Assembly (NCBI RefSeq): GCF_030160115.1 | Contig: NZ_BSNS01000022.1 | Location: 62,001 to 126,000, forward strand | DNA: 64,000 bases | DNA from: Devosia nitrariae | GTDB lineage: Bacteria; Pseudomonadota; Alphaproteobacteria; Rhizobiales; Devosiaceae | Direction of reading: 5' to 3' | Part shown: in pieces, positions 19,494 to 48,216 of the stretch | Layout of the letters: each line of letters begins with the position of its first letter | Numbering within the stretch: the stretch's first letter is position 1 | Made by a program: the position numbers and the translations under genes | Notes under the pieces: generated by a model | The model's input: only the letters and a program-made list of their open reading frames with translations | Databases searched by the model: none | What the model was told of the DNA's origin: nothing

Positions 19494-19498
19494 GCCCC

Positions 19499-31655: not shown

Positions 31656-34600
31656 TCACCCTCGCATCAGTCTCAGGGTCTTGATCTCGAACGGCTTGAA
31701 CGCAAGTAATTGACCCGCATCCACCGACCTCGGCTCGCGCTCAAGCAGGTCGACTTCGACGGCATTTGCAAAACCCGCCGGCAGCCCGACACGGCACGCA
31801 GCACGCACGCCGCGTGTCTCGCAGAGCCGCACGATGACGTCTTCGTTGTCCTCGGCAAGCTTGAGAGCCTCGAGTACGACACTCTCGCCGGTAACGGAGA
31901 GGAACGGCTCGCCTGTTCCCTCGGAAGGCCCTACCCCACCTTCAAGCACCAACAGGGGCATGTTGAAGTCCTCCGCCGCCGCCGCGACGGCGCCGATATC
32001 GCCGTCATGGACCATGACGGCGTAACGCATGCGGTGCTCGCCCTGATCGGCCTGCGGCCACGGATAGGTCGGCGAGCGCAGCAGCGTCAGGCGGATTGTG
32101 GTGTCCCTGACGTCGTACCCGTACTTGCAGTCGTTGAGGAAGGCGACGCCGAAATCGGACTCGCTCATTTCCACCCAGCGCTGCATGGAACATTCGTAAC
32201 GCGCTTCGTCCCAGCTCGTATTGGCGTGCGTTGCTCGCTCGACATGACCGAACTGGATCTCGGCACGCACCTTGGCGGCGTTGATCGCCAGCGGAAAGGC
32301 GGCCTTGAGCAGCGTGTTGTGCTCGTTCCAATCGACGAAAGTTTCAACCTCGACCTGCCGGGCGTCGGCCTCGAGCGAGATCACCTGCACGATACGCGAA
32401 CGCTCATAGGCCCATTCTAGGCGCAATGCGGCGCGATAGGGTCCCGTTTCGGTGACGCGGACGGATTTGAGGTCGTCGATCTCCCAGACCTGGTCCTCGA
32501 ACGAGCGGTCGATGTCCCAGGCATCGAACTGAGCTGGCCTGTCGCGATAGGCCTGCAGGCGATTGCCCACGGCGCCGTCCTCGAGCACCTGCCGACCCGT
32601 CTTGCGGTCGAGGATCGAGGTCACGCGACCGGCATCGTCGAAGCGGATCTCGATATGGGCATTGCCGAGATGGCCGGTCGAGACCGAAAGCTCGCCCTTC
32701 GCCGGCGCCTCGGCCAACGGCATCGCGGCGAGAGCCGGAACTGAGACGACGCGCGCGACGCACGCCATGCGCCCGTCGGCATGCTCGATCGGCTGTCCGG
32801 TACCGTCGCGGGTCTCGACGAGCCCCGAGCGATCTCGGCCGGCAACGTTGAACACAACCGCCTGCCCGGCCGGCGCCAAGGCCTGGCCAAGTTGCGCGCG
32901 GAGGGCCTCGGCCTGCTCGAAGAAGCGCTGATAGTCGCGGTCGCTGTCGTCGTAGACCGCGCCGATCGACGAGCCGGGCAGGATGTCGTGGAACTGGTTG
33001 AGCAGCACGATCTTCCAGAGCGCGTCGAGCTCCTGACGGGGGTACGCGACCACGGCCCTGACGGCCGCAATGGTCGCCAGAGTCTCGATCTCGCGGAGAA
33101 CCGTCTCGGCGCGGCGGTTGTTGGCCTTGTTCTTGGCAACCGACGTCAGCGTGCCGCGATGGTATTCGAGGTAGAGTTCCCCGACCCAGGTCGGGAAGTG
33201 GTTCGGCTCGGCCGCCATCCGCGCCAGCAGCCGATCGAAGAACGGCCGCATCGGCTCGTGGCTGACCTTGGGGCAACCGGGAATGCCGCGCTCCATGCGC
33301 CGGACATTCTCCAGCATCTCGCGCGTCGGCCCGCCTCCGCCGTCGCCATGGCCGTAAACGAGGAACAGCTCGTCGTTGATCGGCTGCTGTCCGTAGCGCT
33401 TCCAGGCGCCCATGACGTGGGTCGGCTTGAGGTCTGGGCAGTATGTCGTGCCGATGCTCGTTGCCGTATAGGGCTGGGTGGTGAGGAAATAGGCTGGCAC
33501 TTTCGTGCCGTCGATCCCTTGCCAGTGGAAGGTTTCGTAGGGCATGCGATTAGTGTCGTTCCAGCTAAGCTTGTGGGTGATGAACGTGTCGAGCCCCGAC
33601 CTCTCCATGAGTTGTGGCAGGGCCGCCGAATAGCCGAATGTGTCGGGCAGCCAGAGGATACGCGGACGCACGCCGAACGTCGCCTCGTGGTAGCGCATCC
33701 CATAAAGGATATGGCGCACCAGCGACTCGCCGCTCGATACGTTGACGTCGGGCTCGAGCCACAGCGCCCCTTCGATCTCGAACTGCCCGTCCCCGACCTT
33801 CTGCCGGATGCGCGCAAAGAGCTCGGGATAGTCCTCGGCCAGGTACTCCAGCAACACGCACTGGTTGTACATGAACCGGTAGTCGGGATAGGCGTCCATC
33901 AGCGACAGCGCCGTTGCCATCGACCGCGCCATCTTCTGGCGCGTCTCGCGCACCCGCCAGAGCCAGGCGACGTCGATATGGGTATGGCCCGTGGCGACGA
34001 TCTTCGGCATGGCCTCGGTATCGGCAAGTCCATAGATCGCGTCGGCGTGCCGCTCGGCAGCAACGAGGCCCTTCCGGAAGCGGTCAGCGTTGCCGGGGCG
34101 GAGGTCAAGCACGGCGAGCGCAGCCTCGACGTGCCGCAGGATAGCATGACGCCGGTTGTCATCGGCCGGCAACAGTCGCGCTACATCGCACGGCACCTTG
34201 AGGTCATAGTAGATTTTCTCGGCCAGCCGGTCGTGGGTGACCAGCTCGCAGGCAAACCCGAGCTGCCGACGGTCCTCAATGGTGCCGGCCTCAATGAGGA
34301 TGTCGTACCGCTCCCCACTCCTCGCCTGTCCGGCAAGCAGCACCGTGCGATGGTTGGCATCGACCCCCTGGGCGATGCGGCCGTTGACCCGCATCAGGCA
34401 TTGCGGGTCCGAGCGCCCCATGACATTGCCGAACTGCGCATCGATCCGCATGTGGACATTCATGCCGTCGAGCGTCTCCGGGATGGCGATCTCGCCGCCG
34501 AACCAGTAGTATCCGTCCGGCTCTCCCCAGATGAGGTTCGAGTCGACCGGCTCCCATTGGGTGCGATCCTCGCCGGGCACGGCAGCCCGCTCGTCATATC

Positions 34601-34712
34601 GGGCAGGCCGGTATCGCAGGGGAACGAAGACGCCGGTGGGCGTGAAGATGCGCTTCTTCAGCGCAGCCAGCAGGGTGTCGATCGCCTCCAGCCGCTTCGC
34701 GATGTCGCCCAT
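31656..34712 (-). CDS. Alpha-mannosidase, glycoside hydrolase family 38
   Basis: A 1018-residue GH38 enzyme that removes alpha-linked mannose. After an N-terminal beta domain (about 1-235), the catalytic barrel begins with GHTHIDVAWLW, in which His245 and Asp247 should bind zinc, and WLPDTFGYSAALPQ holds the nucleophile Asp357. Next come KLSWNDTNRMPYETFHWQGIDGT and VYGHGDGGGGPT, then large C-terminal beta domains. No signal peptide is visible, so it acts in the cytoplasm on imported mannosides. It is cotranscribed with a LacI regulator and adjacent to an Opp-type importer. Length and motifs fit bacterial alpha-mannosidases of about 1000 residues. Confidence 0.93.
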   Translation of the reverse strand: MGDIAKRLEAIDTLLAALKKRIFTPTGVFVPLRYRPARYDERAAVPGEDRTQWEPVDSNLIWGEPDGYYWFGGEIAIPETLDGMNVHMRIDAQFGNVMGRSDPQCLMRVNGRIAQGVDANHRTVLLAGQARSGERYDILIEAGTIEDRRQLGFACELVTHDRLAEKIYYDLKVPCDVARLLPADDNRRHAILRHVEAALAVLDLRPGNADRFRKGLVAAERHADAIYGLADTEAMPKIVATGHTHIDVAWLWRVRETRQKMARSMATALSLMDAYPDYRFMYNQCVLLEYLAEDYPELFARIRQKVGDGQFEIEGALWLEPDVNVSSGESLVRHILYGMRYHEATFGVRPRILWLPDTFGYSAALPQLMERSGLDTFITHKLSWNDTNRMPYETFHWQGIDGTKVPAYFLTTQPYTATSIGTTYCPDLKPTHVMGAWKRYGQQPINDELFLVYGHGDGGGGPTREMLENVRRMERGIPGCPKVSHEPMRPFFDRLLARMAAEPNHFPTWVGELYLEYHRGTLTSVAKNKANNRRAETVLREIETLATIAAVRAVVAYPRQELDALWKIVLLNQFHDILPGSSIGAVYDDSDRDYQRFFEQAEALRAQLGQALAPAGQAVVFNVAGRDRSGLVETRDGTGQPIEHADGRMACVARVVSVPALAAMPLAEAPAKGELSVSTGHLGNAHIEIRFDDAGRVTSILDRKTGRQVLEDGAVGNRLQAYRDRPAQFDAWDIDRSFEDQVWEIDDLKSVRVTETGPYRAALRLEWAYERSRIVQVISLEADARQVEVETFVDWNEHNTLLKAAFPLAINAAKVRAEIQFGHVERATHANTSWDEARYECSMQRWVEMSESDFGVAFLNDCKYGYDVRDTTIRLTLLRSPTYPWPQADQGEHRMRYAVMVHDGDIGAVAAAAEDFNMPLLVLEGGVGPSEGTGEPFLSVTGESVVLEALKLAEDNEDVIVRLCETRGVRAACRVGLPAGFANAVEVDLLEREPRSVDAGQLLAFKPFEIKTLRLMRG

Positions 34713-34844: not shown

Positions 34845-35990
34845 TCAGGCGCGGCGGGCCTGCGCCTCGAGGTTCTCGTTCCTGAAACCGTGACGCTCGA
34901 GCGACCGCCCCTCATCATCGAAGAGGTAGACATTGGCTGGATCGACCGAGAACTGCGTCTCGACACCAGGCCGGATGAACAGGTGCTTGTCGAGGCGCGC
35001 GATGAGCTCGCTCTCAGTCCCCTTCAGCGTGCCGTACCAGAAGGAGGAATGCCCCATATTCTCGACCTGCCGCGCCGTGCCGGTGAGCAGCAGGTGGCCG
35101 GGAGCCGGCGCGTCGGCGCGCAGATCCTCGGCCCGCAGCCCTATTTCGACGGCATCGCCGGCCGCAAGCCGCGATCCGTCGGCATCGACCACGATCGTCT
35201 CCGGGCTGATGCCGTCGGCATGGACCTTGATCTGCCTTCTGTCGCTGGCAACGACCGTGGCAGGGATGAACCGCATGCGCGGCGATCCAACAAAGCCGGC
35301 AACGAACTTGTTGCCCGGGTGGTAGTAGACTTCGAGCGGCGAGCCGACCTGCTGCAGCACGCCGCGGTCGAGGATGACGATCTTGCTGCCGAGCGTCATC
35401 GCCTCGACCTGGTCGTGGGTGACGTAGATCATCGTGGCCGCAAGGCTCTGATGGAGGTTCGCCAGTTCCAGCCGCATGTCGACGCGCAGTTCCGCATCGA
35501 GGTTCGACAGGGGTTCGTCGAAGAGGAAAACCTGCGGCTCGCGCACCAGCGCCCGCCCGATGGCGACGCGCTGACGCTGTCCGCCGGATAGCTCGCGCGG
35601 CAGACGGGCGAGATAGTCAGTCAGGCGGAGCTTGGCCGCCGCCTCGTCGACCTTCTCGGCGATGCGCGCCTTGGGCTCGCCGCGCATGCGCATGCCGAAG
35701 GCGATGTTCTTGTAGACGTTGAGGTGCGGGAAGAGCGCGTAGGTCTGGAACACCATGCCGATCTCGCGCTCGGCAGCCGGTACGTCGTCGACGACGCGCT
35801 CGCCGATGCAGATGGAGCCCGAGGTGATGCCCTCGAGACCGGCGATGGAGCGCAGAAGCGTGGTCTTGCCGCAACCCGAAGGGCCAAGGATGACTGCGAA
35901 GTCGCCGTCATCGATGGTCAGGTCGATGCCCTTGAGAACCTCGATGGGCCCGAAGCTCTTGCGCACGCCGGTGAGAACGACTTCCGCCAT
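34845..35990 (-). CDS. Sugar ABC importer ATPase (UgpC/MsmK type)
   Basis: A 381-residue ATPase with Walker A (GPSGCGKTTLL), Q-loop (MVFQTYALFP), signature LSGGQRQR, Walker B ([12 protein letters not shown]), switch His (YVTHD) and an extended regulatory C-terminus (IGLRAEDLRA). The start MAEVVLTGV at 35990 has an AGGAGG ribosome site; the frame further upstream is antisense-free but lies inside the permease gene. It ends the operon led by the GH78 gene at 41911. Confidence 0.92.
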   Translation of the reverse strand: MAEVVLTGVRKSFGPIEVLKGIDLTIDDGDFAVILGPSGCGKTTLLRSIAGLEGITSGSICIGERVVDDVPAAEREIGMVFQTYALFPHLNVYKNIAFGMRMRGEPKARIAEKVDEAAAKLRLTDYLARLPRELSGGQRQRVAIGRALVREPQVFLFDEPLSNLDAELRVDMRLELANLHQSLAATMIYVTHDQVEAMTLGSKIVILDRGVLQQVGSPLEVYYHPGNKFVAGFVGSPRMRFIPATVVASDRRQIKVHADGISPETIVVDADGSRLAAGDAVEIGLRAEDLRADAPAPGHLLLTGTARQVENMGHSSFWYGTLKGTESELIARLDKHLFIRPGVETQFSVDPANVYLFDDEGRSLERHGFRNENLEAQARRA

Positions 35991-35998
35991 AGTCCCTC

Positions 35999-36838
35999 CT
36001 ATATGCCTTCGATCCCGCGCAGGAACTGGCGCGTGAACAGGCTGAACACGATGATGAGCGGTGCCGAGATGGTGACATAAGCGGCAAAGATCGCCCCATA
36101 GTCGACATTCTCGTTGCCGCGGAACAACAGGGCCGTCGGTCCGACCGGCAGATTGCTCTGGTCCGACATGGTCACGATCGGCCAGATCAGGTCGTTCCAG
36201 GTAAACAGCAGGTCGATGATCGCCACCGACCCCAGGCCCGGCAGCGCCAGTGGGATGGCGACGAACACCAGCACCTTCCACTCGCTCGCCCCTTCGACGC
36301 GCGCCGCATGGAAAAGCTCGCGCGGCAACCGCTCGAAGAAGAGGCGCATCAGATAGATGCCGAAGACCATCTCGAACCCGGTCCACGGAAAGACCAGCGC
36401 CGCCCAGGTGTTCATGAAGCCGAACTGCCGTATCTGCACGAAGAGCGGCACGATGGTGAGGATCCCCGGCACCATCAGCAGCATGAGGATGGCAAGGAAT
36501 ATCAGGTCCTTGCCGCGGAAGTTGAAGCGCCCGAACGCGTAGCCGCCGAGTAGCGACATGAAGAGCGTCAGCGCCAGCGTGAGCGAGGAATAGAGGAGGG
36601 AGTTGAGGACGGCCCGCGACACGCGCGGCCACACCTCGACATAGTTCATCCAGTCGAAGGGAAAGGTGAACCACCAATAGCTTTCGAAGAACTGCTGGCG
36701 GGTCTTGAGCGACGTCGCCAGCATGAAGATGAACGGGTACCAGGTGACGATGGCAAAGAAAACGAGCCCCGCCGTCGGCACCACCAGGCTCCAGGGAAAG
36801 CGCGGGCGCCGCACGCCCACAGCGTCACTGACCGACAT
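35999..36838 (-). CDS. Sugar ABC importer permease (MalG type)
   Basis: A 279-residue permease starting MSVSDAVGVRRPRFPWSL, with the first span at LVVPTAGLVFFAIVTWYPF and EAA loop FHAARVEGASEWKVLVFVAIP. It overlaps the upstream permease by 14 bases and stops eight bases before the ATPase gene. Its last residues, FLRGIEGI, are normal for the family. Confidence 0.92.
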   Translation of the reverse strand: MSVSDAVGVRRPRFPWSLVVPTAGLVFFAIVTWYPFIFMLATSLKTRQQFFESYWWFTFPFDWMNYVEVWPRVSRAVLNSLLYSSLTLALTLFMSLLGGYAFGRFNFRGKDLIFLAILMLLMVPGILTIVPLFVQIRQFGFMNTWAALVFPWTGFEMVFGIYLMRLFFERLPRELFHAARVEGASEWKVLVFVAIPLALPGLGSVAIIDLLFTWNDLIWPIVTMSDQSNLPVGPTALLFRGNENVDYGAIFAAYVTISAPLIIVFSLFTRQFLRGIEGI

Positions 36839-37775
36839 CGTAGGCTCCTTTGTAGCGGGCGCGCACGGTGTAGTAGGAAAAGACCAGGCCGACGATGACC
36901 ATGACGACGCCGGCCGCCGCTGCGAGCCCGAACTCGCCATATTGGAATGCGGCCCGGTAGACATACCAGCCGGGTGATTCCGTCGCCGTACCCGGTCCGC
37001 CCTTGGTCAGCACCAGTTGCGGCTCGACCGCCTGAATGCCCGAGAGCACCAGCAGCACCGCAATGAAGATCAGCGACCCGCGCAGCATCGGAATGTCGAC
37101 CTCGAACACCCGGCGTAGCCGCCCGCAACCCTCAATCTCGCAGGCATCCAGGACATCCTTTGGGATACCCTCGAGCGCGGAGACGAAGACGATGAAGGAG
37201 AGGCCTGAAATGAAGGGGAACTGCACGAAGGCGATGGAGAAAAGTGCCGTGGCGGAGCTGCCGAGCCACGGCCGGGCCATGTCGGCAAGTCCGATCGCCT
37301 CCAGCAGGGAATTCAGCATGCCGTTCTGCGGCGCGAGAATGAATCCCCACAGCAGATAGATGACCGAAAGCGGCACGACCATGGGAAGCACGAAGACGAT
37401 CTTCCAGAACGTACGCACCGTCGCGCTCTTGAAACTGATGACGAATTCGGCGGCAAGGAAAGCGAAGGTGATCAGCAGCACGACGCGCAGCGACGTGTAG
37501 ATGACCATGTTCTTCAAGCCTTCGAGGAAAACGTAGTCGTTGAACAGGTCCTCGAAATTGCGCAGGCCCAGGAACCGGCGGATGCGGATGCCGTCCCAGT
37601 CGGTCAAGGAATAGAAGAAGGCCGCGAAGGTCGGGACGTAGCGAAAGATAATGAGGTGGACGAGCACTGGAGCCAGCAAGATCCACGGCAGATATTTGTT
37701 GACGTAGGAACTCGCCGACCGGCGTTCGCCTGTCCTCGTCCGGCTGGCCTCGACGCTGCCGCTCACTGAACTCAT
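36825..37775 (-). CDS. Sugar ABC importer permease (MalF type)
   Basis: A 316-residue permease starting MSSVSGSVEAS at 37775 with ribosome site AGGAGGG. Spans begin at YLPWILLAPVLVHLIIF. The coupling loop is LDACEIEGCGRLRRVFEVDIP, with Cys in place of the second Ala, a tolerated change. A 168-base palindromic element separates it from the binding-protein gene upstream. Confidence 0.92.
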   Translation of the reverse strand: MSSVSGSVEASRTRTGERRSASSYVNKYLPWILLAPVLVHLIIFRYVPTFAAFFYSLTDWDGIRIRRFLGLRNFEDLFNDYVFLEGLKNMVIYTSLRVVLLITFAFLAAEFVISFKSATVRTFWKIVFVLPMVVPLSVIYLLWGFILAPQNGMLNSLLEAIGLADMARPWLGSSATALFSIAFVQFPFISGLSFIVFVSALEGIPKDVLDACEIEGCGRLRRVFEVDIPMLRGSLIFIAVLLVLSGIQAVEPQLVLTKGGPGTATESPGWYVYRAAFQYGEFGLAAAAGVVMVIVGLVFSYYTVRARYKGAYDVGQ

Positions 37776-37809
37776 CTGCTGACCCTCCTGCGTCGTGGTC
37801 CGCCTGCAC

Positions 37810-37977
37810 CTCCCTCCCCCTTGTGGGGAGGGTGGCCCGCGTAGCGGGTCGGGTGGGGGTATGCCTCGGCAGGAACCGTAGCATCGCGTTTTGCCGCGAC
37901 GTCCCCCACCCTGCTCGATCACGGACTTAGCTGGCGCTAAGTCCTATCTCGCTTCCCTCCCCACAAGGGGGAGGGAG
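37810..37977. repeat. Palindromic element with 23-base perfect terminal inverted repeats
   Basis: The ends, 37810-37832 and 37955-37977, are exact reverse complements over 23 bases (CTCCCTCCCCCTTGTGGGG... and its complement). Inside are a stem CCCGC-GTA-GCGGG and a perfect 8-base stem GGACTTAG / CTAAGTCC (37923-37944). No coding capacity. It sits within an operon, between the binding-protein and permease genes, where the other importers here have a simple hairpin. It resembles the non-autonomous palindromic elements common in Hyphomicrobiales. Confidence 0.8.
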
Positions 37978-38015: not shown

Positions 38016-39461
38016 CTACTCAGCGCACCAGGCCCATTCGTCTCCGGCCTCGAAGCACATGTCCTCGACAGCCCGTTCGAGCGCGCGCCGGTACTGCCCC
38101 TTGAGCTGCTCGGCATCCATCTCGCCCAGCATGAAGCTCTGCATCAGCCGGTTGTGCTCGGAACCAAACTTCTGGTTGAGGCGAGCGATCGGATCGGTGA
38201 GCGCCCGCTCGGGCAACTGCGCGATCTCCTGGAAAGCCTTGGCGACCGCCGGCGGCTCGACCCCTTCGATCACCGGAATGTAGCCGGCGTCGGCCGCCGC
38301 CACCCGCGCATAGTTCTGCGGGGCAGTGAAGAACCTGAGGAAATCGATGGCCGTCTCGGCCGTGCCGCGCTCGACGGTCGAGGCCGTCACGCCGAACTGA
38401 CCCGAACTCGACGGCCCGCCCACGCGGTAAGAGGTGTCGTGGATGGCGTAGGGGCTTTCGTCCTTGCTGAAGGGGGGCATATAGCTTGAGCCGACCTTGA
38501 ACGGCACGTCGGCAAGGCTGGGTGCCGACCACGCGCCGAGCCAGACCATGGCAACCTGTTCGTTGTAGAACATGTTGAACAGCGTGTCGTATTCGGGAAT
38601 GCCGGCAAAGCCTTCCACCAGGCAATTGTCGGCCATTTCCTTGGTCAGCGACAGATAGGTGTCGAACCGCGGGTCATCTACCGAGAACTTGCCGTCCTTG
38701 ACCGCCTTGGCGAACTCCTCGCGGGTGAGCTGGCGCCAGGGCAGGAACTCGTTGGCGTATTTGTCCATGTACCAGCTCTGGGCGACATCGGCGAAGGCGC
38801 CGGTGATGATGATGTCGTCGAGCCATTGATAGGTGCTCCATTCGGGCGTCATGAACACCCCGATCGGCTGGATGCCCTTGGACCGCAGCTCCTTGCAGGT
38901 CTCGATCATGTCACCCCAGTCTTCCCAACCGGAGATGTCGACGTCATTGGCGGCGAGCAGGTGCTCGTTGACGTAGAAGCCGGTTTCCACCCAGTTGGTG
39001 TTGACCTGGTACCAGTTGCCGTCACCGCCGCGGATCTGGGCCAGGACGTTCTCGAAGAAGATGTCGCCCCAGCGGTCGTGGCCGTTCTCGCCCTCCGGGA
39101 TATAGGGGTTCGGCTGCTCGAGATATTCGTTGAGGGCCAGCCAGTTGTCCGTCCCTTCCGTGTTGCGCTGGTAGAACTGCTGCCAGGTGATGTCCGGCTC
39201 GTCACCGGCCGTGAAGCGGGTGGTCAGCCACGCTTGGTAGGCGTTGACGTCGGCGATGTGCGGAATGAGGTTGATCTTGACGTCAGGATGCTCCGCCTCG
39301 TACTCGGCGACCAGTTCCTGCGTCACCTTGGTGACCTCCGGATTGGTCTCGGGCGCATAGAACTGGTTGACGTACATGCTGAGATTGGTCTGGGCCATGA
39401 CTGGCGAGGCCGCCATCAGGGCAATGCCGGCTGTGACAGCCGTCAGTCTGCAAGCGTTCAT
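38016..39461 (-). CDS. Sugar ABC importer, solute-binding protein (family 1)
   Basis: A 481-residue binding protein with signal peptide MNACRLTAVTAGIALMAASPVMA-QT. The mature part shows VAEYEAEHPDVKINLIPH, TAGDEPDITWQQFYQRN, YNEQVAMVWLGAWSAPS and FLRFFTAPQNYARVAAADAGYIPV, all typical for family 1. It follows the GH78 alpha-L-rhamnosidase gene by 86 bases and precedes its permeases. Therefore a rhamnose-containing oligosaccharide is the best guess for the ligand. Confidence 0.92.
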   Translation of the reverse strand: MNACRLTAVTAGIALMAASPVMAQTNLSMYVNQFYAPETNPEVTKVTQELVAEYEAEHPDVKINLIPHIADVNAYQAWLTTRFTAGDEPDITWQQFYQRNTEGTDNWLALNEYLEQPNPYIPEGENGHDRWGDIFFENVLAQIRGGDGNWYQVNTNWVETGFYVNEHLLAANDVDISGWEDWGDMIETCKELRSKGIQPIGVFMTPEWSTYQWLDDIIITGAFADVAQSWYMDKYANEFLPWRQLTREEFAKAVKDGKFSVDDPRFDTYLSLTKEMADNCLVEGFAGIPEYDTLFNMFYNEQVAMVWLGAWSAPSLADVPFKVGSSYMPPFSKDESPYAIHDTSYRVGGPSSSGQFGVTASTVERGTAETAIDFLRFFTAPQNYARVAAADAGYIPVIEGVEPPAVAKAFQEIAQLPERALTDPIARLNQKFGSEHNRLMQSFMLGEMDAEQLKGQYRRALERAVEDMCFEAGDEWAWCAE

Positions 39462-39547: not shown

Positions 39548-41911
39548 TTAGTTCCCTTGGACCCGGAAACTGATCTCGTGTCGGCCCGGCGAAAGCCGTG
39601 CCGTTGTCTTGCCGCCATCGGCGGCGGTCAGGACGGATGATCCGTCGACGACGATGTCACGGTAGTCCGGTGCCAGCACCAGCAAGCCCTCGGCGCCCTC
39701 GGGCACGCTGACGTCATAGGCGACCTTGTTCCCATCGAGCGCCCATCCCGCCTCGATACGCCCGACCCTGCTGTCGTGGTGGGCAGCGACCGGCGAGAGC
39801 GCGGCAATGACGGTCGGCTCGAAAATGATCCGCTTGAAACCCGGCATCTCCGGGTCTGGCCGGAAGCCGGCGACGGCCTCGAAAAGCCACTGACAGACCG
39901 CGCCATAGGCGTAGTGGTTGTAGGAGTTCATGCCTTCAGGGTGCGTGGATCCATCCGGCATGACGGCGTCCCACCGCTCCCAGATGGTCGTTGCCCCCTT
40001 CTTGACCTGATAGAGCCAGCCGGGCAGTTCCTCCTGCAGGAACACCTGCCCGGCGAGCTCCGTTTCGCCGATCTTGACCAGCGCCGGCAGCAGCGCCGGG
40101 GTGCCGATGAACCCCGTGCCGATGCGCCCGTCGCAGCGCGCGATCGCCGCCTTGAAATAGCCCTTGGCCGCCTCGACATGCTCGGCCGGGATCAGGTCGT
40201 GCATGAAGGCGAGCGCATACGACGTCTGGTCGTCATAGGCGAGCCGTCCGGATCCGGTGACGAACTCGCGCATGAAAGCCTTCTTGACCGCTTCCGCGCG
40301 CTCACCCATGCGCTGGGCGACGGCGTCGTCGCCGACGATTTCCGCGGCCCTCGCCGTCAGCACCGACGAGATGTAGAGGTAAATGGTTGCCGCCGCGTCG
40401 TCCCCGATTGTCGGCAGCGGCTTGACGCTCGGTCCGCTCGGCTGCAGCCAGTCGCCAAAGGTGAAGCCGCGCTTGCCCCAACCGCGCGGCGGCTTGACGA
40501 TCGGCCCGTCCGAAATGCTCCAGACGAAGTCGACCCATTTCACCATCGCCGGCAGCGTTTCCTCGAAGACCGAAGCATCGCCATAGTGCTCGTAGAGCAC
40601 GTGCGGGATGACGCAGATGACATCGCCCCACCCGGTCGAGCCGAAAAAGCCCGGTGCGGCCTGCGGATGCATGCGTGTCGGATCGGGCGTGACATGGGCG
40701 ATGGCGCCGTCCTCGCGCTGGTCAGCCATCACGTCGCGCAGCCATTTGCGCAAGAATGTCTCGCTGTCGTTGAGGTAGCATGCGGTCGGCGCGAACACCT
40801 GCGCATCGCCCGTCCATCCGAGCCGCTCATCGCGCTGCGGACAGTCAGTTGGCACCTCGACGAAGTTGGCGCGCTGCGACCACAGAGTATTCTCGACCAG
40901 CCGGTTGACCAGGGGATGGCCGGAGGTGAATGCGGCTGTCGGATGCGCCGCAGAGGAGACGGGCACCGAGGCGATCGATTTGATCTCGGCCCTGCCCTCG
41001 ATCGTAATCCGCGCATAGCGGAAGCCCTGGAAGGTGAAATAGGGTCGATAGCTCTCTACATCGCCGCCTTTAAGCACGTATTCGATGCGCGCCTCCGCGG
41101 TTCGAAGGCTCGCCCGGTCGAACTGGCCGTGCTTGTCGAGGATTTCGGCATGGTCGACGACGATCTGCGCACCCGGCTCGCCCGCGACGGTAAACGCCAC
41201 GTAGCCGGCGCTGTTCTGGCCGAAATCGTAGACCGTGCGCCCTTCTTCGTCGGTGAAGGACGATACCACCGGCAGCGGCTCGAGTTCCATGACCCCGGTG
41301 GTCTCATGCGCAACGAGGATGCTCTTGTCGAACGGCAGCACCTCGCCGCCGCCGATCGCGGGCAGGTCTTCCTGGCGGGCATCATAGATCTCGCCGAAAT
41401 AGATGCCGGACTTGAGGATGGGCAGCAGTCCGCTTTTCCAGGAACCGTCGGTGGCAAGGATCGGATCAAGTCCGTCACCGCGGATCTCGGCGATCGCCCC
41501 TATCTTGTCGCCCCAGCAATTGATGATATTGCTCGACGGCCACATCATGCGCGACCGGTACCAGCCGTCGGCCAGCCAGATATCGATGACGTTGCGGCCG
41601 GGCCTGAGAAGGTCCGCGATATCGTAGGTCTGGTAGGACAGCCGCACGTCATAGCAGGTCCAGCCGGGCGTCAGCACGTCCTCGCCCACCCGCTTTCCGT
41701 TGATGAAGGCGCGATAGAGCCCCTGGGCGCTAATCAGCAAACGCTCATTGCCGCCAACATTGGCGAGGTCGAATTCCTTGCGCAGGAACGAAGCCTGCGC
41801 GCCCACTCCCGCATCGACGGTCGGACGCACCATCTCGGCGGTCCAAGCGGCCGGGTTGTGGCTGACTCGTGCTTCGGCCGAGCTTTCCGGCGCGACTATG
41901 GTGTCGGACAT
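39548..41911 (-). CDS. Alpha-L-rhamnosidase, glycoside hydrolase family 78
   Basis: A 787-residue inverting alpha-L-rhamnosidase. N-terminal beta domains include the carbohydrate-binding segment LYRAFINGKRVGEDVLTPGWTCYD. The (alpha/alpha)6 barrel begins with the family signature PTDCPQRDERLGWTGDAQ, in which Glu362 is the presumed general acid, and a later WERWD segment holds the presumed base. There is no signal peptide, so it works on imported oligosaccharide. It is the first gene of the operon GH78 - binding protein - permease - permease - ATPase, and a palindrome CTTGTC-T-GACAAG lies about 50 bases upstream of its start. Confidence 0.93.
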   Translation of the reverse strand: MSDTIVAPESSAEARVSHNPAAWTAEMVRPTVDAGVGAQASFLRKEFDLANVGGNERLLISAQGLYRAFINGKRVGEDVLTPGWTCYDVRLSYQTYDIADLLRPGRNVIDIWLADGWYRSRMMWPSSNIINCWGDKIGAIAEIRGDGLDPILATDGSWKSGLLPILKSGIYFGEIYDARQEDLPAIGGGEVLPFDKSILVAHETTGVMELEPLPVVSSFTDEEGRTVYDFGQNSAGYVAFTVAGEPGAQIVVDHAEILDKHGQFDRASLRTAEARIEYVLKGGDVESYRPYFTFQGFRYARITIEGRAEIKSIASVPVSSAAHPTAAFTSGHPLVNRLVENTLWSQRANFVEVPTDCPQRDERLGWTGDAQVFAPTACYLNDSETFLRKWLRDVMADQREDGAIAHVTPDPTRMHPQAAPGFFGSTGWGDVICVIPHVLYEHYGDASVFEETLPAMVKWVDFVWSISDGPIVKPPRGWGKRGFTFGDWLQPSGPSVKPLPTIGDDAAATIYLYISSVLTARAAEIVGDDAVAQRMGERAEAVKKAFMREFVTGSGRLAYDDQTSYALAFMHDLIPAEHVEAAKGYFKAAIARCDGRIGTGFIGTPALLPALVKIGETELAGQVFLQEELPGWLYQVKKGATTIWERWDAVMPDGSTHPEGMNSYNHYAYGAVCQWLFEAVAGFRPDPEMPGFKRIIFEPTVIAALSPVAAHHDSRVGRIEAGWALDGNKVAYDVSVPEGAEGLLVLAPDYRDIVVDGSSVLTAADGGKTTARLSPGRHEISFRVQGN

Positions 41912-41961: not shown

Positions 41962-41974
41962 CTTGTCTGACAAG
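41962..41974. promoter_or_regulatory. GntR-type operator candidate, site 1 (GH78 operon)
   Basis: A perfect 13-base palindrome CTTGTC-T-GACAAG, followed by TAGCTAAC. Two close relatives lie upstream of the GntR gene (44019) and the GH106-like gene (48204), each followed by GTTAGC. It is about 50 bases upstream of the GH78 start, in the 320-base divergent region shared with the LacI gene at 42232. Confidence 0.6.
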
Positions 41975-42073
41975 TAGCTAACTTGCAAGGCCTCAATGAC
42001 CTGCATGGAAACAATCCCTGTCGGCAGCGAAGCATGGGCGTAGACCGTTCTACATAGCACCAAGCAATCACGG

Positions 42074-42085
42074 TTTGGCGCCAAA
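42074..42085. promoter_or_regulatory. LacI-type operator candidate upstream of LacI gene
   Basis: A perfect 12-base palindrome TTTGGCGCCAAA, flanked by CAAGCA (42061-42066) and TGCTTG (42094-42099), which are also inverted repeats. It lies about 150 bases upstream of the LacI gene at 42232 in the divergent region and is distinct from the GntR-type site. Autoregulation or control of the GH78 operon are both possible. Confidence 0.4.
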
Positions 42086-42231
42086 AGCAATCATGCTTGT
42101 GCATCTTCATGCAGAACCCGTCACAGCGTGAGCAGAACCTGCGGAAAATCCATGTCCGCAGAACTTTGGGGTCTTGCGGCAATGCCGGTGACAGGTGAAT
42201 TCTCTCCTCACCCGTCGTCACAGGATCCGCC

Positions 42232-43260
42232 ATGGCCTCCAGCCGCACGACCGACCGCACCACCATCCGCACTGTGGCCGCCGATGCTGGCGTCTCGGTT
42301 GCCGCCGTTTCCAAGGTCCTGCGCAACGCCTACGGGGTCAGCGACGAGTTGCGCGCCCGGGTCGAGACGTCGATCGCCCGCCTCGGCTATCGGCCACGCG
42401 CCGCCGCCCGTGCCATGCGCGGCCAGACCGATACCATCGGCGTGCTGCTCGCCGACATTCGCAATCCGTTCTTTTCCGATATCATGGACGGCGTCCACTC
42501 GGCCCTCGAGCGTACGAAATACCAGAGCCTGGTGGGCATCAGCCAGTCGGCGCTCAGTATCGAGCTGGCATTGGTCGACGCCATGACGGACAGGCCGATG
42601 GATGGGTTGATTCTGGTGGCACCGCGCATGGTGGCCGCCGACGTGACGGTCACGGCCCTGCGCTCCCCCACCGTCCTCATCGGCCATCATGAACCGCAGG
42701 CGACACTCTTCGACACGGTCAACGACAACGACCGGCTGGGCGCTCAACTGGTGGTGGAGCATCTCGTTGCCACCGGGCGGAGCGACATCGCCTTCCTCAG
42801 CCTCGAGATCGACGATCCGATCAATGCCCTGGTCACCAGCCAGCGAGAGATCGGCTATCGCGCCGCCATGGCCGAGAACGGGCTCTCGGCCCATGTCGAC
42901 ATCGTGCGCGCCGGTCAGAGTTCGCGCGAAACCCAGGCGGCGGCGCGCCGCATGCTCAAGAGCGGCGAGCGGCCCGAAGCCATCTTCTGCTGGACCGATT
43001 TCGTCGCGCTCGAAGTACTAAGCGTCGCCCGTGAGCTGGGCCTGTCGGTTCCCGAGGACGTTGCCGTCGTCGGCTACGACAACACCAGTTATTGCGACCT
43101 CGCCCAGAACGACCTGACCAGTGTAGACCAGTCGGGCCACACTCTCGGGCTGCAGGCGGCGCGCCTGCTGATCGAACGCATCAAGGGCCGTATCAGCCCC
43201 GAACACTTCGTCGTCACGCCGCGGCTGGTCGCGCGCGGCAGCTCCCGACCGCGGACATAA
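42232..43260 (+). CDS. LacI-family transcriptional regulator
   Basis: A 342-residue regulator with the DNA-binding segment TTIRTVAADAGVSVAAVSKVLRNAYGVSDELRARVETSIARLGYRP (residues about 8-52) split by family-typical residues, followed by a sugar-binding sensor domain (TIGVLLADIRNPFFSDIMDG, VPEDVAVVGYDNTSY, TSVDQSGHTLGLQAA). It is divergent from the GH78/importer operon and its stop is 13 bases from the end of the convergent GntR gene. It probably co-regulates rhamnoside uptake. Confidence 0.92.
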   Translation: MASSRTTDRTTIRTVAADAGVSVAAVSKVLRNAYGVSDELRARVETSIARLGYRPRAAARAMRGQTDTIGVLLADIRNPFFSDIMDGVHSALERTKYQSLVGISQSALSIELALVDAMTDRPMDGLILVAPRMVAADVTVTALRSPTVLIGHHEPQATLFDTVNDNDRLGAQLVVEHLVATGRSDIAFLSLEIDDPINALVTSQREIGYRAAMAENGLSAHVDIVRAGQSSRETQAAARRMLKSGERPEAIFCWTDFVALEVLSVARELGLSVPEDVAVVGYDNTSYCDLAQNDLTSVDQSGHTLGLQAARLLIERIKGRISPEHFVVTPRLVARGSSRPRT

Positions 43261-43272
43261 AACGAGAACGCT

Positions 43273-44016
43273 TCAGGCTTCGTCCATCACCGCCAGCGTG
43301 GTGCGGCGGATGTTCTCGACATGGACGCTCATGGCTTCACGCGCCGCCTCGGGATCGCGCCCGGCGATCGCCGCGCAGATGGCTGCGTGATCGGCGGCTG
43401 AGACCTCGAGCACGCCGGGCTTGGCCGACGCCTTGCGCCGTTGCTCGATGGCAAGGCTGTAAAGGCTTCCCGACACCTTTTCGAGAAAGTCGTTGTTGGC
43501 GGCAACGGCGATCAGCTCGTGGAACTGTGCGTCCATGACGCGAAACCCGACCGGATCGTCGATGAGCTTATAACCGGCATCGACGAGTTCCGAGAGCGAG
43601 GCAATCTGCTCGTCCGTCGCGTAACGCGCCGCCTCCGCTGCAATGCCGGTATCGATGACCTGCCGGGCACGAAACAGGCTCTCGATGTTGTAGTCATTGA
43701 GGGACAGGGCGAAGGAGAGTGGCGCCATAAGCCGCTGCGGCTTCAGGTCCGTGACATAGCACCCGCCACCCTGGCGGCTGGCGACGATCCCCATCATCGC
43801 CAGCCCGCGCAGCGCCTCGCGCACCACCGGCCGCGATACCTGCAGCGCCTTGGAGAGCTCGTTCTCGCTCGGCAGCTTGTCGCCGGGCGCGATGTTGCCC
43901 GAGGAGATGAGGCCGATGAGGCGCTCGGCCACGCGCTCGGAAGCGGACGGCTTCTGATCGATTGGTGTCAGTTTATCGAGTGTGGTCATAGTCATGCGCG
44001 TGCCCCGCCGGCTCAT
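43273..44016 (-). CDS. GntR-family regulator (FCD subfamily)
   Basis: A regulator of up to 247 residues. The winged helix shows PGDKLPSENELSKALQVSRPVVREALRGLAMMGIV and the FCD domain follows from about residue 95 (VIDTGIAAEAARYAT, MDAQFHELIAVAANNDFL). The start is uncertain: the ATG at 44016 lies only two bases from a candidate operator (44019-44031), so the ATG at 43995 (MTMTTLDK) may be the real one. The same motif precedes the GH78 operon and the GH106-like gene, which makes this the likely regulator of all three. Confidence 0.88.
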   Translation of the reverse strand: MSRRGTRMTMTTLDKLTPIDQKPSASERVAERLIGLISSGNIAPGDKLPSENELSKALQVSRPVVREALRGLAMMGIVASRQGGGCYVTDLKPQRLMAPLSFALSLNDYNIESLFRARQVIDTGIAAEAARYATDEQIASLSELVDAGYKLIDDPVGFRVMDAQFHELIAVAANNDFLEKVSGSLYSLAIEQRRKASAKPGVLEVSAADHAAICAAIAGRDPEAAREAMSVHVENIRRTTLAVMDEA

Positions 44017-44018
44017 GC

Positions 44019-44031
44019 CTTGTCATACAGG
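44019..44031. promoter_or_regulatory. GntR-type operator candidate, site 2 (GntR gene)
   Basis: CTTGTCATACAGG followed by GTTAGC; it agrees with site 1 at 10 of 13 positions. It sits directly in front of the GntR gene, as expected for autoregulation. Confidence 0.5.
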
Positions 44032-44083
44032 TTAGCAAGTCAGCCGGAACGGTTCATCTCCTCTCGCTTCCATCACACAGAAT

Positions 44084-47000
44084 TCAGCAAAGCCGCACCG
44101 GTCCGAAGAGACCGGAGACGTCCTGTCCGCCAAAGATCGAGCGGGTCGGCGAAGCGCCCTTGAGATAGGGGGCCAGCGTGTTGAACACCGTGACGGTGAG
44201 GCGGTTCTCGCCGGGGCGCAGCTTGCCGGCAATGTCGAACCTGTATGGCGACCAGACGCGCACGCCTGCCGCCTGCCCGTTGACCTCAACCTCCGCCGTC
44301 CCGCGCAAGCCGCCGAGATCGAGCACCGTCCAGGCCGAGGGATCCTCGATGGTGAGCGTCTGCTCATAGGCAAGGCCACCCGAATAGAATTCGAGGCCGT
44401 TGTCCGCCCAGGCGCCCAGCGCGATGCGGCCCTCCGCGACATCGAACTCGACCGGCGCTTCCCACACGGCGCCGCCGAGCCGGCCGTCCTGAGGCAGCAC
44501 GCGCACCATCAACTGAGCGCCCGCCAGCGTCTCAGCAGGAAGGATGACCTCGCCATCCGCAACCGCCAGTTCGGCGTCGCCCAAGGACGCCGTGACCCGC
44601 GCCCCAGTGATGGGAAGTCTGGCGATCCGCGCACCGGGCGGCAGCGGCAGGCGGAACCACTGGGCAACCCTCTCGCGCCCCGGATTGGGTTCGGGAACGA
44701 TGTCGAGGACGCCCTCGAGCGGCGCGTCGGGGTCGATCCAATTGCTGCGCGGCAGGGGGTGCGGGCGTGGCCGCAGCCAATAGAACCGCGCATCGTGGCG
44801 CTGGTTGATCCGCATGGTGAGCTCGACCGGTGTGCCCTCGCGTTCGGCTGCCCAGTTCATGTCGCTCACCAGATAGCGCTCGCCGCCATCGGGCGAAGTG
44901 ATGACACCATCGAGGAAAAAAGCGAGCACCTTGCCATCGTCGGTGAACCGCGCCTCGATGAGATTGTCGCCCGGCTTAAGGTATGAGGTGAGGTCGTAGC
45001 GCATGACCCGCGCGTTGCGCCAGACCTCATAGGGCTCGAACGCCCCCTGCATCGCGACCTCGTGTCCATTGACCAGCAACCGCGCAACGCCGATCGAACC
45101 AAAATGCACAACAAGGCTGTCGCCTTGCTGCGTGGTGAGGCTCCGGCGGATCGAGAGCGTCGTGCCGGCCTTCCAGCCATCGGCCGGTTCCAGCCATTCC
45201 GGCCGTGCAAAGGCTTCCGAGTCGCTGGTCAGTGCCCAATAGGCCTCGAGGTCGCCCGCTTCGACGGCGCTCACCCGCGACTCCAGGAGGTTGAGTCCGG
45301 CCTTCGCCTCGACCGGCTGCATGTAGAGATAGCCGCCGGTATCTTCGGCAAGGCGCACGCCGTTCCACCAGACCTCTTTGCGCCCGTTGCCGCCGATCGC
45401 TAGCGTCAACGAGCCGGCCGTTTCGACCGGCAGGCAGGTGCGCACCTGCACCGTCTCGCTTGCCGCAACGCTCGCCAGCCGGATCATTGGTTCGAGCACG
45501 CGCCCCTTGGGGCCTAATGTCTTGTCGTGCTGGAAATCGTGATCGATGCCGCGCGAAAGCGAATAGTCGACCGCTTGCCAGCCCTCGCCACCAAGCTCGC
45601 CCTGGTGCCCGGCCGGCAGGGGCGCCGGCAGTTTACCGGACTGGGCAGGTCCGAACGACCAGGCCCTGACGCCATCCGTCAGCGGCACGCGCTGCCAGCC
45701 TTCCACATCCGCCGGAGGCGACTCGGCCGCGTCCTCGCGCCAGTCCGCCTGCCAGATCTGCACGGGCAGCGGCCCCGGGCTCGCCGGCAGGATGAAGTCG
45801 CCGTGACGATTGTCCATGGTGGGGATGACGCGCGACGTCCAACTGGCATTGAGAACCAACTCCCTGCCGCTCTCGCGCGCAGGTGCGGCCTCCGCCTCGC
45901 CCTTCGTCGACCAGACCAGCACGGTCATCGGCGACTGCGAGAAGTCGACCTCGGCCTCCGTGATGCCGGACAGCTGCGTCACGGCCACGGGCCTCGTTTC
46001 ACCCGTTCCCGGGTCCCATTGCTCGATGGCGCCGACCGGACCGGCGATCCGCACCGTTGCGCTCTTGCGCTGTGAAGCCAGGTCAAAGCCGATACCGCTC
46101 TCGCGCAGCTCGCGGTTGTAGCGCGGCATGGAGATATGGTCGGTATCGTACCCCCACTCGGCCCAGGGCAACCGTCCCTCGGCACTGGCCGCGCCGATAG
46201 CCGCGGCGGTGATGAACAGCATGCTGACATCCCCGTCCCGCCGCAGAAGCGTCGGCGAATCCGTCACAACCTCGGCAGGCAATGTCGCCAGCGCTGCCTC
46301 AAGCCTCGCCTCGATGCCCGCGCCACCCGCCACGACCTGAGCCTTGCCGTTGGCAACGAGAGCCTTCAGCGTCGCGATCGCCGCCTCGCCTTCGACACGG
46401 TCGGCAACCTCGGGCGGATGATCGATGAAAATCAGCAGCCCGCCCGCCTCGGCAAAGGCGGAAAGCTTTTGCGCGGTGGCTGTTTCCAGCATCCACATGG
46501 CCGGCACGATGATCGCTTTGTAGAGCTCGCCGCGCGTATGGAGAGCACCCTCCGCAATGCGCGCAGCCGCGACGGTATCGTCGTCCAGCACGTCGAAATC
46601 GCGCCGAAGCCGCTTGAGCGGCCCTGACCGTGCATTGAACCAGGTCATCTGCCCGACGAGGTCCTGATAGGTCCCGTGAGCCGCGCGAGCGGTCTGGCCG
46701 CAGCTGTCGAGAAAGAGATCGGCCTGCACCGTGGCGCTCGGGAACAGCAGGCCGATATCGCATTGATGCTCACCGCGCGTCGCCAGCCAGCAGAGACGGC
46801 TGACGGCATCGGCGAAGTGCTTGTAGTGGCGCCAATAGGGCTGCCGCCAGCAAGTCGATGGCGCCGCCCATTCCCATTGTCCGCCGCGCGTCGAATAATA
46901 GACCGCATGCGGATCGTAGAGGTTGGCGCCCGCCAGCAGCCAGGGCTGCAACCAGTCGAAGGTCTCCTCGAGCGTGCCGCCCCAACCGGACGAATGGAAC

Positions 47001-48097
47001 GCCTCGATCCACGTGCGAGGCCGCCCGTAATTGTGGGCAAGCGAGGAATGGAACTTGGCGTCGCCCCAATGGTCGCTGCCCGGTGCCGAGTACCAGCGGT
47101 GGGTACGCGCATAGTCGGCATATTGATCCACCGTCGAAATCGGCTGGGCGGCGCGCGAGGGGCTCTGCTGGTCGAAGCCGATGGTCAGTCCATGCTTTTC
47201 ATGCCAATCGAACACCGGCTTGAACAGGGCCTCCTCGGCAAGCTGAGCGCGCACCCGCTGATAGTCGATGCGGATGCGGGCGCTCGCGAGGCCCCAATCT
47301 TCCCAGAGCGCGGCAACCTTGTCGGTCAGCCGATAGCCGCAGCGCTTCTCGAACTCGCCCGCGAACCGCGCGCTCCAGGTCGGCACGGATGGCAGCTCGT
47401 CCTGGAACGAACCGACGATGGCGCTGCCGAAATACTTGCCGAGGCGTTTTTCGAACGCGTGGTGGACGATATCCATCAGCGCCCGGCACGCCTCGGGCGA
47501 ATGATAGTCGTATCCCTTGCGGATGGCATAGGCGAGGATCAGTCGCGCCCTGCCCTCTCCCCGCCAGCTGATGACGCCGTCCTCGAGTGCAAGGTTCACC
47601 GGTTCCCCCGCCACGCACCCGTCCGCCGAAAGCGGCAGCACTTGGCCGGCAACGAACACCCCGGCCTCCGGCAGCGCGATCTCACCCTCGCCCGCTACAT
47701 CCAGCGTCACGCGGTTGAGGTCCATGCCGACGAAAGCCGGATTTTTGACTGCCAGCCGTCCCTGCAGGTTGGCGCCCGAAAACCCGATCTGGTCGTAGAA
47801 CCAGAAGCACATGCCAACTTTCCGGGCGTGATCGCAAACCCCCTCCCACAGCGCCCACCATTCCTCGGTGAGGAAGTGCGGATTATCGCTCAAGGCGCCG
47901 TACATCGGCCCGGTAGGTGCGAGGTTCAGCACCACGGCATTGTGGACGCCCTGCGAGACGAGCTGGTCGACCTGCCAGGTCATCCTGTCGAGTGCGAGCT
48001 CATCGCCGCTCCACCACCAGATCGGTACGGGCGAATATTCCGGGTTCGGGACCGCGAAACCTTCATGGAGCGCGGCGCTGACCTGGCTCTTCGACAT
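44084..48097 (-). CDS. GH106-like alpha-L-rhamnosidase family protein
   Basis: A 1337-residue protein resembling family GH106. The N-terminal barrel begins PVPIWWWSGDELALDRMTWQ, then GVHNAVVLNLAP, the possible catalytic segment SFQDELPSVPTW, and WIEAFHSSGWGGTLEETFDW. C-terminal parts are beta-rich with GH2-type sugar-binding folds, such as LARLLVNGHEVAMQG-like and VEVNGQAAGVRVWSPYRFDI segments. No signal peptide, unlike many GH106 enzymes of Bacteroidetes, so a cytoplasmic role is likely. It follows an operator-like site shared with the GH78 operon and the adjacent GntR gene. The catalytic assignment is by resemblance; another glycosidase activity is possible. Confidence 0.78.
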   Translation of the reverse strand: MSKSQVSAALHEGFAVPNPEYSPVPIWWWSGDELALDRMTWQVDQLVSQGVHNAVVLNLAPTGPMYGALSDNPHFLTEEWWALWEGVCDHARKVGMCFWFYDQIGFSGANLQGRLAVKNPAFVGMDLNRVTLDVAGEGEIALPEAGVFVAGQVLPLSADGCVAGEPVNLALEDGVISWRGEGRARLILAYAIRKGYDYHSPEACRALMDIVHHAFEKRLGKYFGSAIVGSFQDELPSVPTWSARFAGEFEKRCGYRLTDKVAALWEDWGLASARIRIDYQRVRAQLAEEALFKPVFDWHEKHGLTIGFDQQSPSRAAQPISTVDQYADYARTHRWYSAPGSDHWGDAKFHSSLAHNYGRPRTWIEAFHSSGWGGTLEETFDWLQPWLLAGANLYDPHAVYYSTRGGQWEWAAPSTCWRQPYWRHYKHFADAVSRLCWLATRGEHQCDIGLLFPSATVQADLFLDSCGQTARAAHGTYQDLVGQMTWFNARSGPLKRLRRDFDVLDDDTVAAARIAEGALHTRGELYKAIIVPAMWMLETATAQKLSAFAEAGGLLIFIDHPPEVADRVEGEAAIATLKALVANGKAQVVAGGAGIEARLEAALATLPAEVVTDSPTLLRRDGDVSMLFITAAAIGAASAEGRLPWAEWGYDTDHISMPRYNRELRESGIGFDLASQRKSATVRIAGPVGAIEQWDPGTGETRPVAVTQLSGITEAEVDFSQSPMTVLVWSTKGEAEAAPARESGRELVLNASWTSRVIPTMDNRHGDFILPASPGPLPVQIWQADWREDAAESPPADVEGWQRVPLTDGVRAWSFGPAQSGKLPAPLPAGHQGELGGEGWQAVDYSLSRGIDHDFQHDKTLGPKGRVLEPMIRLASVAASETVQVRTCLPVETAGSLTLAIGGNGRKEVWWNGVRLAEDTGGYLYMQPVEAKAGLNLLESRVSAVEAGDLEAYWALTSDSEAFARPEWLEPADGWKAGTTLSIRRSLTTQQGDSLVVHFGSIGVARLLVNGHEVAMQGAFEPYEVWRNARVMRYDLTSYLKPGDNLIEARFTDDGKVLAFFLDGVITSPDGGERYLVSDMNWAAEREGTPVELTMRINQRHDARFYWLRPRPHPLPRSNWIDPDAPLEGVLDIVPEPNPGRERVAQWFRLPLPPGARIARLPITGARVTASLGDAELAVADGEVILPAETLAGAQLMVRVLPQDGRLGGAVWEAPVEFDVAEGRIALGAWADNGLEFYSGGLAYEQTLTIEDPSAWTVLDLGGLRGTAEVEVNGQAAGVRVWSPYRFDIAGKLRPGENRLTVTVFNTLAPYLKGASPTRSIFGGQDVSGLFGPVRLC

Positions 48098-48203
48098 TGA
48101 TGATCACCCATGATGCGGTTCGTCTGGTCGCAGACGAGCATGCGTCCGCCTGTACCGGCGCCACACCTCCTCCACTCGCCCGAGGTTTGCACCGACCTGA
48201 CAA

Positions 48204-48216
48204 TTTGTCAAACAAG
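48204..48216. promoter_or_regulatory. GntR-type operator candidate, site 3 (GH106-like gene)
   Basis: TTTGTCAAACAAG followed by GTTAGC; 10 of 13 positions match site 1 at 41962, and the TTGTC/ACAAG half-sites match. It lies about 110 bases upstream of the GH106-like gene and on the other side faces the DUF72 gene. Confidence 0.55.

Follow-up and report, generated by a model that had tools for sequence, protein, structure and literature searches.

The window analysed here, 64,000 nt of the genome of the soil bacterium Devosia nitrariae (contig NZ_BSNS01000022.1, positions 62,001 to 126,000), contains three copies of a short palindrome in a rhamnosidase locus. Comparison of sequences suggests that these sites are very probably operators of a GntR regulator of the FCD/FadR subfamily encoded between them (43273..43989, minus strand). 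This protein is an orthologue of a regulator of rhamnose clusters, and it would control an operon for a GH78 alpha-L-rhamnosidase and a sugar importer, the gene of a GH106-like enzyme, its own gene and an unlinked L-rhamnose oxidation operon on another contig. A preliminary description of the DNA had proposed an operator regulon with autoregulation by the GntR protein; conservation of the sites, their location in one locus and the transfer of a motif matrix from other genomes all argue for this proposal.

Operator 1 (CTTGTCTGACAAG, 41962..41974) lies in the intergenic region between the GH78 and lacI genes, 51 nt before the GH78 start at 41911. Operator 2 (CTTGTCATACAGG, 44019..44031), the proposed autoregulation site and the one with the lowest score among the three, precedes the GntR gene by about 30 nt when counted from its likely start at 43989. 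Operator 3 (TTTGTCAAACAAG, 48204..48216) is found 107 nt before the start of the GH106-like open reading frame (ORF) at 48097. None of the three was assigned a strand. The sites are present exactly at 41962, 44019 and 48204 and each is upstream of a minus-strand gene, as had been described before. The description of the flanks was also correct: operators 2 and 3 continue into (G)TTAGC, and operator 1 is followed by TAGCTAAC.

The exact form TTGTCNNACARG gave four strand matches at three places in the window versus 0.12 expected, and this count was reached in none of 100 shuffles. In the complete genome (5.54 Mb) YTTGTCNNACARG was found at eight places with nine strand matches, and the reversed control also gave nine. 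The five places outside the window were all within coding sequence according to a simple ORF caller, so that only the three places in the window are intergenic. Since the raw genome count equals that of the reversed control, the evidence lies in position and clustering and not in number. The preliminary description had named many random matches across the genome as a sign of a spurious motif; the exact matches beyond the locus were all coding and the count did not differ from the control. The three sites are not chance occurrences. The genome-wide motif search consisted of degenerate consensus scans, in which only the matches to YYTGNNTGACAAR were scored with a matrix throughout the genome, and sites off these patterns would be missed. 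A sigma-70 scan found no promoter at the three sites, so that no position relative to a promoter can be given for them.

Among 101 relatives, each with at most 27 candidates scored, only Devosia geojensis BD-c194 (G056) has a closely related orthologue of the GntR protein (87-88% identity, next best 45%), and there the whole locus is syntenic. All three sites recur there at the same places and are kept to 92-100%, while the promoters are otherwise 57-61% identical. For operator 1, 12 of 13 bases (92%) are kept versus 61% around it; this promoter contains two other 12-nt blocks that are equally well kept, one of them a predicted LacI operator (see below). Operators 2 and 3 lie inside identical blocks of 21 and 23 nt, respectively, and in both cases the rest of the promoter is 57% identical. 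The conserved blocks reach into the TTAGC side of the sites. Extra boxes beside GntR palindromes are described in passages of PMC4494728.

To score the sites, a symmetric 19-bp matrix was built on nine rhamnose-cluster sites from other genomes, together with versions of 13 and 23 bp. Operator 1 ranked first of 63,982 window positions at all three widths (27.0 bits at 19 bp). With the 13-, 19- and 23-bp matrices, operator 3 took ranks 4, 2 and 2 (23.4 bits at 19 bp) and operator 2 ranks 2, 3 and 4 (13.6 bits at 19 bp). When groups of training sites were left out in turn, the left-out sites always ranked first in their own loci and the window sites were at ranks 1, 2 and 3-4, the last being operator 2 (3 or 4). 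A word search free of the core, in which all 13-mers of eight rhamnose-operon promoters were compared (one from contig C7 of this genome but none from the window), gave ACTTGTCAGTCAA/CTTGACTGACAAG as the best word, with a score of 81 versus at most 68 in 30 mononucleotide shuffles.

The window's own genome is referred to below as G000 and its contigs as C3, C7, C20 and C22. In G000 the pattern YYTGNNTGACAAR occurs at 13 places (reversed control 5), five of which score at least 13 bits: those before the C7 operon, GH78, the GH106-like gene and gntR, and C3:47370. In D. geojensis it occurs at 16 places (control 3), and exactly four reach 13 bits; these belong to the same four targets, and the next one down scores 8.3 bits. 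The GH106 site of D. geojensis was called coding by the ORF caller, in our view because of a spurious antisense ORF. A scan with CTTGTCNGACAAG, allowing up to one mismatch, gave 15 places (control 11 per strand). Twelve of them were coding, and the others were operator 1, the C7 site and L106; the ORF caller marked L106 as intergenic, though the site overlaps the start of a FAD-monooxygenase ORF.

The C7 site, found with the extended pattern, is CTTGACTGACAAG at C7:498272-498284, about 140 nt before an operon. With 30.5 bits in the 19-bp matrix it has the highest score of all sites. The operon encodes an L-rhamnose 1-dehydrogenase (Lra1; 433 bits, equivalog cut-off 400), an amidohydrolase read as the lactonase, which has 105 bits against the L-fucono-lactonase model (cut-off 400), an L-rhamnonate dehydratase with 446 bits (cut-off 393) and a short-chain dehydrogenase/reductase (SDR). 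Its proteins are 46-72% identical to those of a rhamnose cluster in another genome (L049). Lra1 was found in at least three of 75 genomes of the genus (G000, G056 and G048; best 30 or fewer candidates per genome). The small local regulon that had been proposed is supported for its targets in the window, but it does not appear to be only local, since a fourth operator precedes this L-rhamnose oxidation operon. A second rhamnose route is present in the genome at about 259-268 kb of C22 (L090), with a classical RhaD rhamnulose-1-phosphate aldolase/dehydrogenase, a DeoR regulator and a mutarotase. The genome-wide scan gave no exact-form match to the motif in this C22 cluster.

Orthologues of the GntR protein in other alphaproteobacteria suggest that its usual setting is an L-rhamnose oxidation cluster and not a rhamnosidase locus. 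Proteins of 62-64% identity were found in L045-L049 (two Rhizobiaceae metagenome-assembled genomes (MAGs), a Bauldia, a Rhodobacterales MAG and Nitratireductor) and of 67-68% identity in G335 and G164; L125, which is the same contig as L047, was counted once. All seven loci lie with genes of non-phosphorylating L-rhamnose oxidation. Genes in fetched loci were taken from a crude ORF caller, and among the seven the equivalog cut-offs were checked for L049 only. An Lra1-like L-rhamnose 1-dehydrogenase and an L-rhamnonate dehydratase are present in six loci (L045, L046, L047, L049, G335, G164), and the stretch examined of L048 has only the dehydratase and an SDR and no Lra1. Five loci contain an L-rhamnose mutarotase (L046, L047, L049, G335, G164), with a partial match of 43% in L045, and four a lactonase-type amidohydrolase (L045, L046, L047, L049). 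The proposed regulon for rhamnoside use is supported for its rhamnosidase targets, but as the orthologues sit in such clusters its core seems to be rhamnose oxidation.

The operator is present in all seven orthologue loci, in six by core match and in L048 by the matrix. In L045, L046, L047 and L049 it precedes a divergent importer operon; in G335 and G164, TTCGCAACTTGACTGACAAGTTGCGAA stands before the operon that contains the window-type GntR; and in L048 the matrix match, which is outside the training set, lies between the dehydratase and the GntR gene. Absence of the motif from loci that keep the GntR gene would have spoken against the preliminary description. Together with D. geojensis, the motif was found in all eight outside loci with a GntR of at least 62% identity; neither this check nor the one on random matches refuted the proposal. 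Below 62% it becomes patchy: G146 has three GntRs (48-58%) and two sites, and in G048 (GntR 44%) and G074 (45%) TGGT-type palindromes replace the motif.

GH78 orthologues are common in the genus (53 of 75 genomes), and the promoters of 30 of the 62 GH78 matches, those with loci, were examined. Only two of the 30, G000 and G056, contain the 13-mer within one mismatch, and both loci have this GntR. The matrix maxima were 27.0 bits in G000 and 17.3 bits in G056 versus at most 8.6 in the other 28 promoters. In 24 of the 28 site-less genomes no copy of the GntR closer than 44% was found (23 genomes with the best 27 or fewer candidates each and G237 with seven; G449, G456, G457 and G459 were left out). 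The GH78 promoter of the window contains a second palindrome, the predicted LacI operator GTAGACCGTTCTAC (42040..42053, no strand assigned), which has a central CG and is GTAGAACGGTCTAC-like. Its reverse complement was found with up to three mismatches in 29 of the 30 promoters and with up to two in 25; in the control, 12 of 600 shuffles reached three mismatches and none reached two. Because the 13-mer occurs only in G000 and G056 whereas the CG-centred palindrome occurs in 29 of 30, the first palindrome goes with the GntR and the second is probably LacI's. GTAGACCGTTCTAC is thus likely to be a genus-wide rhamnosidase operator, and GH78 is probably co-controlled by the LacI-family protein (42232..43260, plus strand; Pfam), whose gene is divergent from GH78, as a second regulator.

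Several points weigh against assigning the sites to this GntR. The motif alone does not name the regulator, since its core is the general FadR-subfamily consensus and is also protected by the Pseudomonas regulator LhgR. The comparison with D. geojensis involves a close relative, L046 is nearly a copy of L049, and within the L042/L126/L127 group some parts are near copies too. Because the training sites were chosen by core match within one mismatch, the matrix is not independent in its core. The word search had only mononucleotide shuffles as controls; applied to the three window promoters alone it gave CTTGTCTGACAAG with the modest margin of 22 versus at most 21 in 50 shuffles. The consensus YYTGNNTGACAAR was designed to include the four known sites, and the 13-bit cut-off was set after operator 2 had been seen. 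Operator 2 itself is weak. A score of 13.5 bits was reached at three places (C7, C3 and one unexplained coding site) among 245 kb of other DNA; operator 2 would therefore not be conspicuous genome-wide by its score and rests instead on conservation and position. The C3 site (C3:47370-47382, L131) has 18.0 bits, more than operator 2, and precedes an amidohydrolase gene; a different GntR (27% identical) is encoded about 8 kb off, and we treated the site, without proof, as belonging to that protein. Four of the 28 site-less GH78 promoters contain TTGCCAAACAA, one mismatch from the 11-base core, but with 4.3-4.6 bits. Finally, the Lra1 gene of G048 stands behind a GntR of 44% identity, and upstream of the first gene of its operon is TTGGACAGACCAA (12.7 bits) and not this motif.

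The weakness of operator 2 and the fact that exact core matches are as frequent in the genome as in the reversed control would suit three coincidental palindromes without function. Yet the clustering in the window (versus 0.12 expected), the identical blocks of 21 and 23 nt in promoters of 57% identity and the transfer of a matrix built in other genomes speak so clearly for function that we give coincidence hardly any weight. Scarcely more credible is that the divergent LacI protein (42232-43260), or another regulator of the locus, owns the site at 41962 and the sites related to it. Operator 1 does lie between GH78 and lacI, but the 28 other GH78 promoters of the genus have no such site, 27 of them keep the CG-centred palindrome with up to three mismatches, and the motif accompanies the GntR in seven other genomes. 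LacI as owner was rejected on this promoter comparison. The second FCD GntR of the window (20267-21043, 29% identical) was also rejected as owner, as no FadR-type palindrome was found in 19490-20280.

A regulon restricted to the rhamnosidase locus deserves more consideration, though we judge it improbable. Here the three sites would still belong to this GntR, and the C7 operon with CTTGACTGACAAG would be run by another FadR-type regulator. Indeed, the rhamnose operon of D. geojensis has next to it the gene of a second GntR, with 36-39% identity to the window type, and a single base in the left half distinguishes the C7 site from operator 1. However, this second GntR and related proteins in G048, G335 and G164 have promoter sites of their own, of the type TGGTCnGACCA (with one mismatch in G164). 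Furthermore, G335 and G164 have both GntRs, and CTTGACTGACAAG precedes the operon in which the window-type GntR is encoded. G000 keeps the C7 site although it lacks a near copy of the second GntR; with all 77 candidates scored, E 1e-20 was reached by just two clade-like GntRs, that of the window and one of 32% on C20. The rhamnose-operon site CTTGACTGACAAG fits the window-type GntR, and control of both the rhamnosidase locus and the C7 operon by this protein is the reading followed below.

The gene order in other genomes bears on how one GntR may have come to serve both loci. In G335 and G164 the window-type GntR gene is located between a permease gene and Lra1, and 13 nt separate these ORFs in D. 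geojensis. The simplest history suggested by this comparison is a transfer of the GntR gene out of the rhamnose operon and into the rhamnosidase locus. As a further point of caution, support for the window clade in the tree is only partial; the tree is consistent with such a move and has one long outlier branch. The FadR-type GntR could then represent a new class of rhamnose regulator whose gene left the L-rhamnose oxidation operon in the Devosia lineage, was captured by the rhamnosidase locus, acquired new operators there and still controls the old operon in trans, a scenario to which we give an even chance. If true, two paralogous GntRs would be separated by one base pair per half-site (TTGT versus TGGT), resulting in a split but insulated regulon. 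This looks like a regulator that changes its locus while keeping its old target, a case of regulon rewiring that is testable with two paralogues and two operator variants per genome.

Related site variants were seen in further loci. A paralogous GntR clade (L042:9403, L033:9515, L126:1579, L127:4408) has sites of the TGGTCnGACCA type instead of TTGTCnGACAA, and both variants can share one genome. In L045, L046, L048 and L049 a conserved GTCAAGTTGAC stretch directly adjoins the palindrome and is perhaps a second binding box. GntRs of about 40% identity (L036, L037, L039, L040, L041) are accompanied by TTGTCAGACAA plus another box at a distance of 15 bp. Pfam was applied to one of these loci, L037, which contains aldose-oxidation genes, perhaps for L-fucose.

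The proposed regulon is made of parts of known kinds. The operator of FadR-subfamily GntR regulators is given in passages of PMC4494728 as the palindrome TKGT-N3-ACMA. Operators 1 and 3 match both boxes exactly and operator 2 deviates once, at the last base of ACMA. The regulons of DgoR, ExuR, LldR and GlcC, as far as this source presents them, share with the present one the combination of a helix-turn-helix (HTH) and an FCD domain and the TKGT-N3-ACMA palindrome; the difference lies in the proposed targets, which here comprise the alpha-L-rhamnosidase and oligosaccharide importer, the GH106-like enzyme and the unlinked operon for L-rhamnose oxidation. LhgR protects TTGTCTGACAA, which is identical to the core of operator 1, but it responds to L-2-hydroxyglutarate (PMC8206213). 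The best NCBIfam match of the GntR protein was NanR (142.8 bits, below the cut-off of 260), and the NanR structure 6on4 was among its top matches to solved structures. NanR is portrayed in sections of PMC8012715 as a zinc-binding FadR-type protein with the sugar acid Neu5Ac as effector and GGTATA repeats as binding sites, whereas the motif here is a CTTG-N5-CAAG palindrome without a GGTATA direct repeat.

The available portion of PMC3870299 lists as bacterial rhamnose regulators RhaS/RhaR of the AraC family, RhaR of the DeoR family and RhaR, RhiR and RhmR of the LacI family, and the word GntR is absent from that text. Some of these regulators likewise couple rhamnoside hydrolysis and uptake to rhamnose catabolism. 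In contrast to them, the regulator here is of the GntR/FadR type and the pathway is the non-phosphorylating one. Searches of the open-licence literature turned up no account of a rhamnose or rhamnosidase regulon under a GntR/FadR protein. The analysis suggests a likely function for an uncharacterised GntR clade and offers a transferable operator matrix, and it would add a GntR/FadR solution to rhamnose control beside AraC, DeoR and LacI.

A possible mechanism is that a dimer of the GntR protein binds CTTG-N5-CAAG together with the outer arms of the site and represses. The non-phosphorylating pathway makes L-rhamnonate and 2-keto-3-deoxy-L-rhamnonate, so one of these is the likely inducer: the rhamnose-derived carboxylate would bind to the FCD domain and the DNA would be released. 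We thus expect the GntR to be a repressor freed by a rhamnonate-type acid, with the effector, like binding, repression and control across loci, being inferred. Release and uptake of rhamnosides, rhamnose oxidation and the regulator itself would then all rise together, and the LacI protein would add a second input at GH78.

The GntR protein has an N-terminal GntR HTH domain (73.2 bits, Pfam cut-off 27) and a C-terminal FCD domain (87.9 bits, cut-off 24.3). Its ORF was called as 43273-44016. The corresponding D. geojensis gene begins at MTTLEKLTP, in both genomes GGCGGGG is found shortly upstream, and the true start is probably 43989 rather than 44016. The residues D160, H164, H208 and H230 are invariant across seven aligned orthologues. 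They may belong to the Asp/His set which in many FCD domains binds metal.

The operon behind operator 1 lies on the minus strand. Its first gene encodes the GH78 alpha-L-rhamnosidase (39548..41911; Pfam Bac_rhamnosid6H 348 bits, four Bac_rhamnosid domains above cut-off). The importer consists, by Pfam, of a sugar-binding protein (38016..39461; SBP_bac_8/SBP_bac_1), permease 1 (36825..37922 as called, the true start being probably downstream; BPD_transp_1), permease 2 (35999..36964; BPD_transp_1) and an ATPase (34845..35999; ABC_tran), the last lying inside ORF 34845-36677 with an upper end that is approximate and taken from the D. geojensis alignment. A gene for a GH38 alpha-mannosidase (31656..34712; Pfam) follows downstream on this strand, and we infer that it belongs to the operon; the synteny is kept in D. 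geojensis.

The GH106-like enzyme (44084..48097, minus strand) has 1337 amino acids and a rhamnosidase-type jelly-roll domain (NCBIfam rhamnoside_JR 66 bits, cut-off 50). Its label in the preliminary description is weak: the match to rhamnoside_JR is above cut-off, but Pfam Glyco_hydro_106 gave 17.3 bits (cut-off 29). NCBIfam AlphaRhamBT4145 gave 86 bits (cut-off 1300), and the structures 5mwk and 5mqm match in the C-terminal domain only. The protein may be a distant GH106 relative at best. In a search of 397 genomes of the order it was found at E 1e-100 only in its own genome; D. geojensis is absent from the listed genomes of the genus, its copy having been found by locus comparison, and this draw is uninformative for co-occurrence. 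Viral contigs, when scanned, yielded no relative. Elsewhere in the window, the second FCD GntR gene (20267-21043) is located downstream of a gene for a mandelate-racemase-type dehydratase and of an SDR reading frame, the latter read by eye (region 18264-21043).

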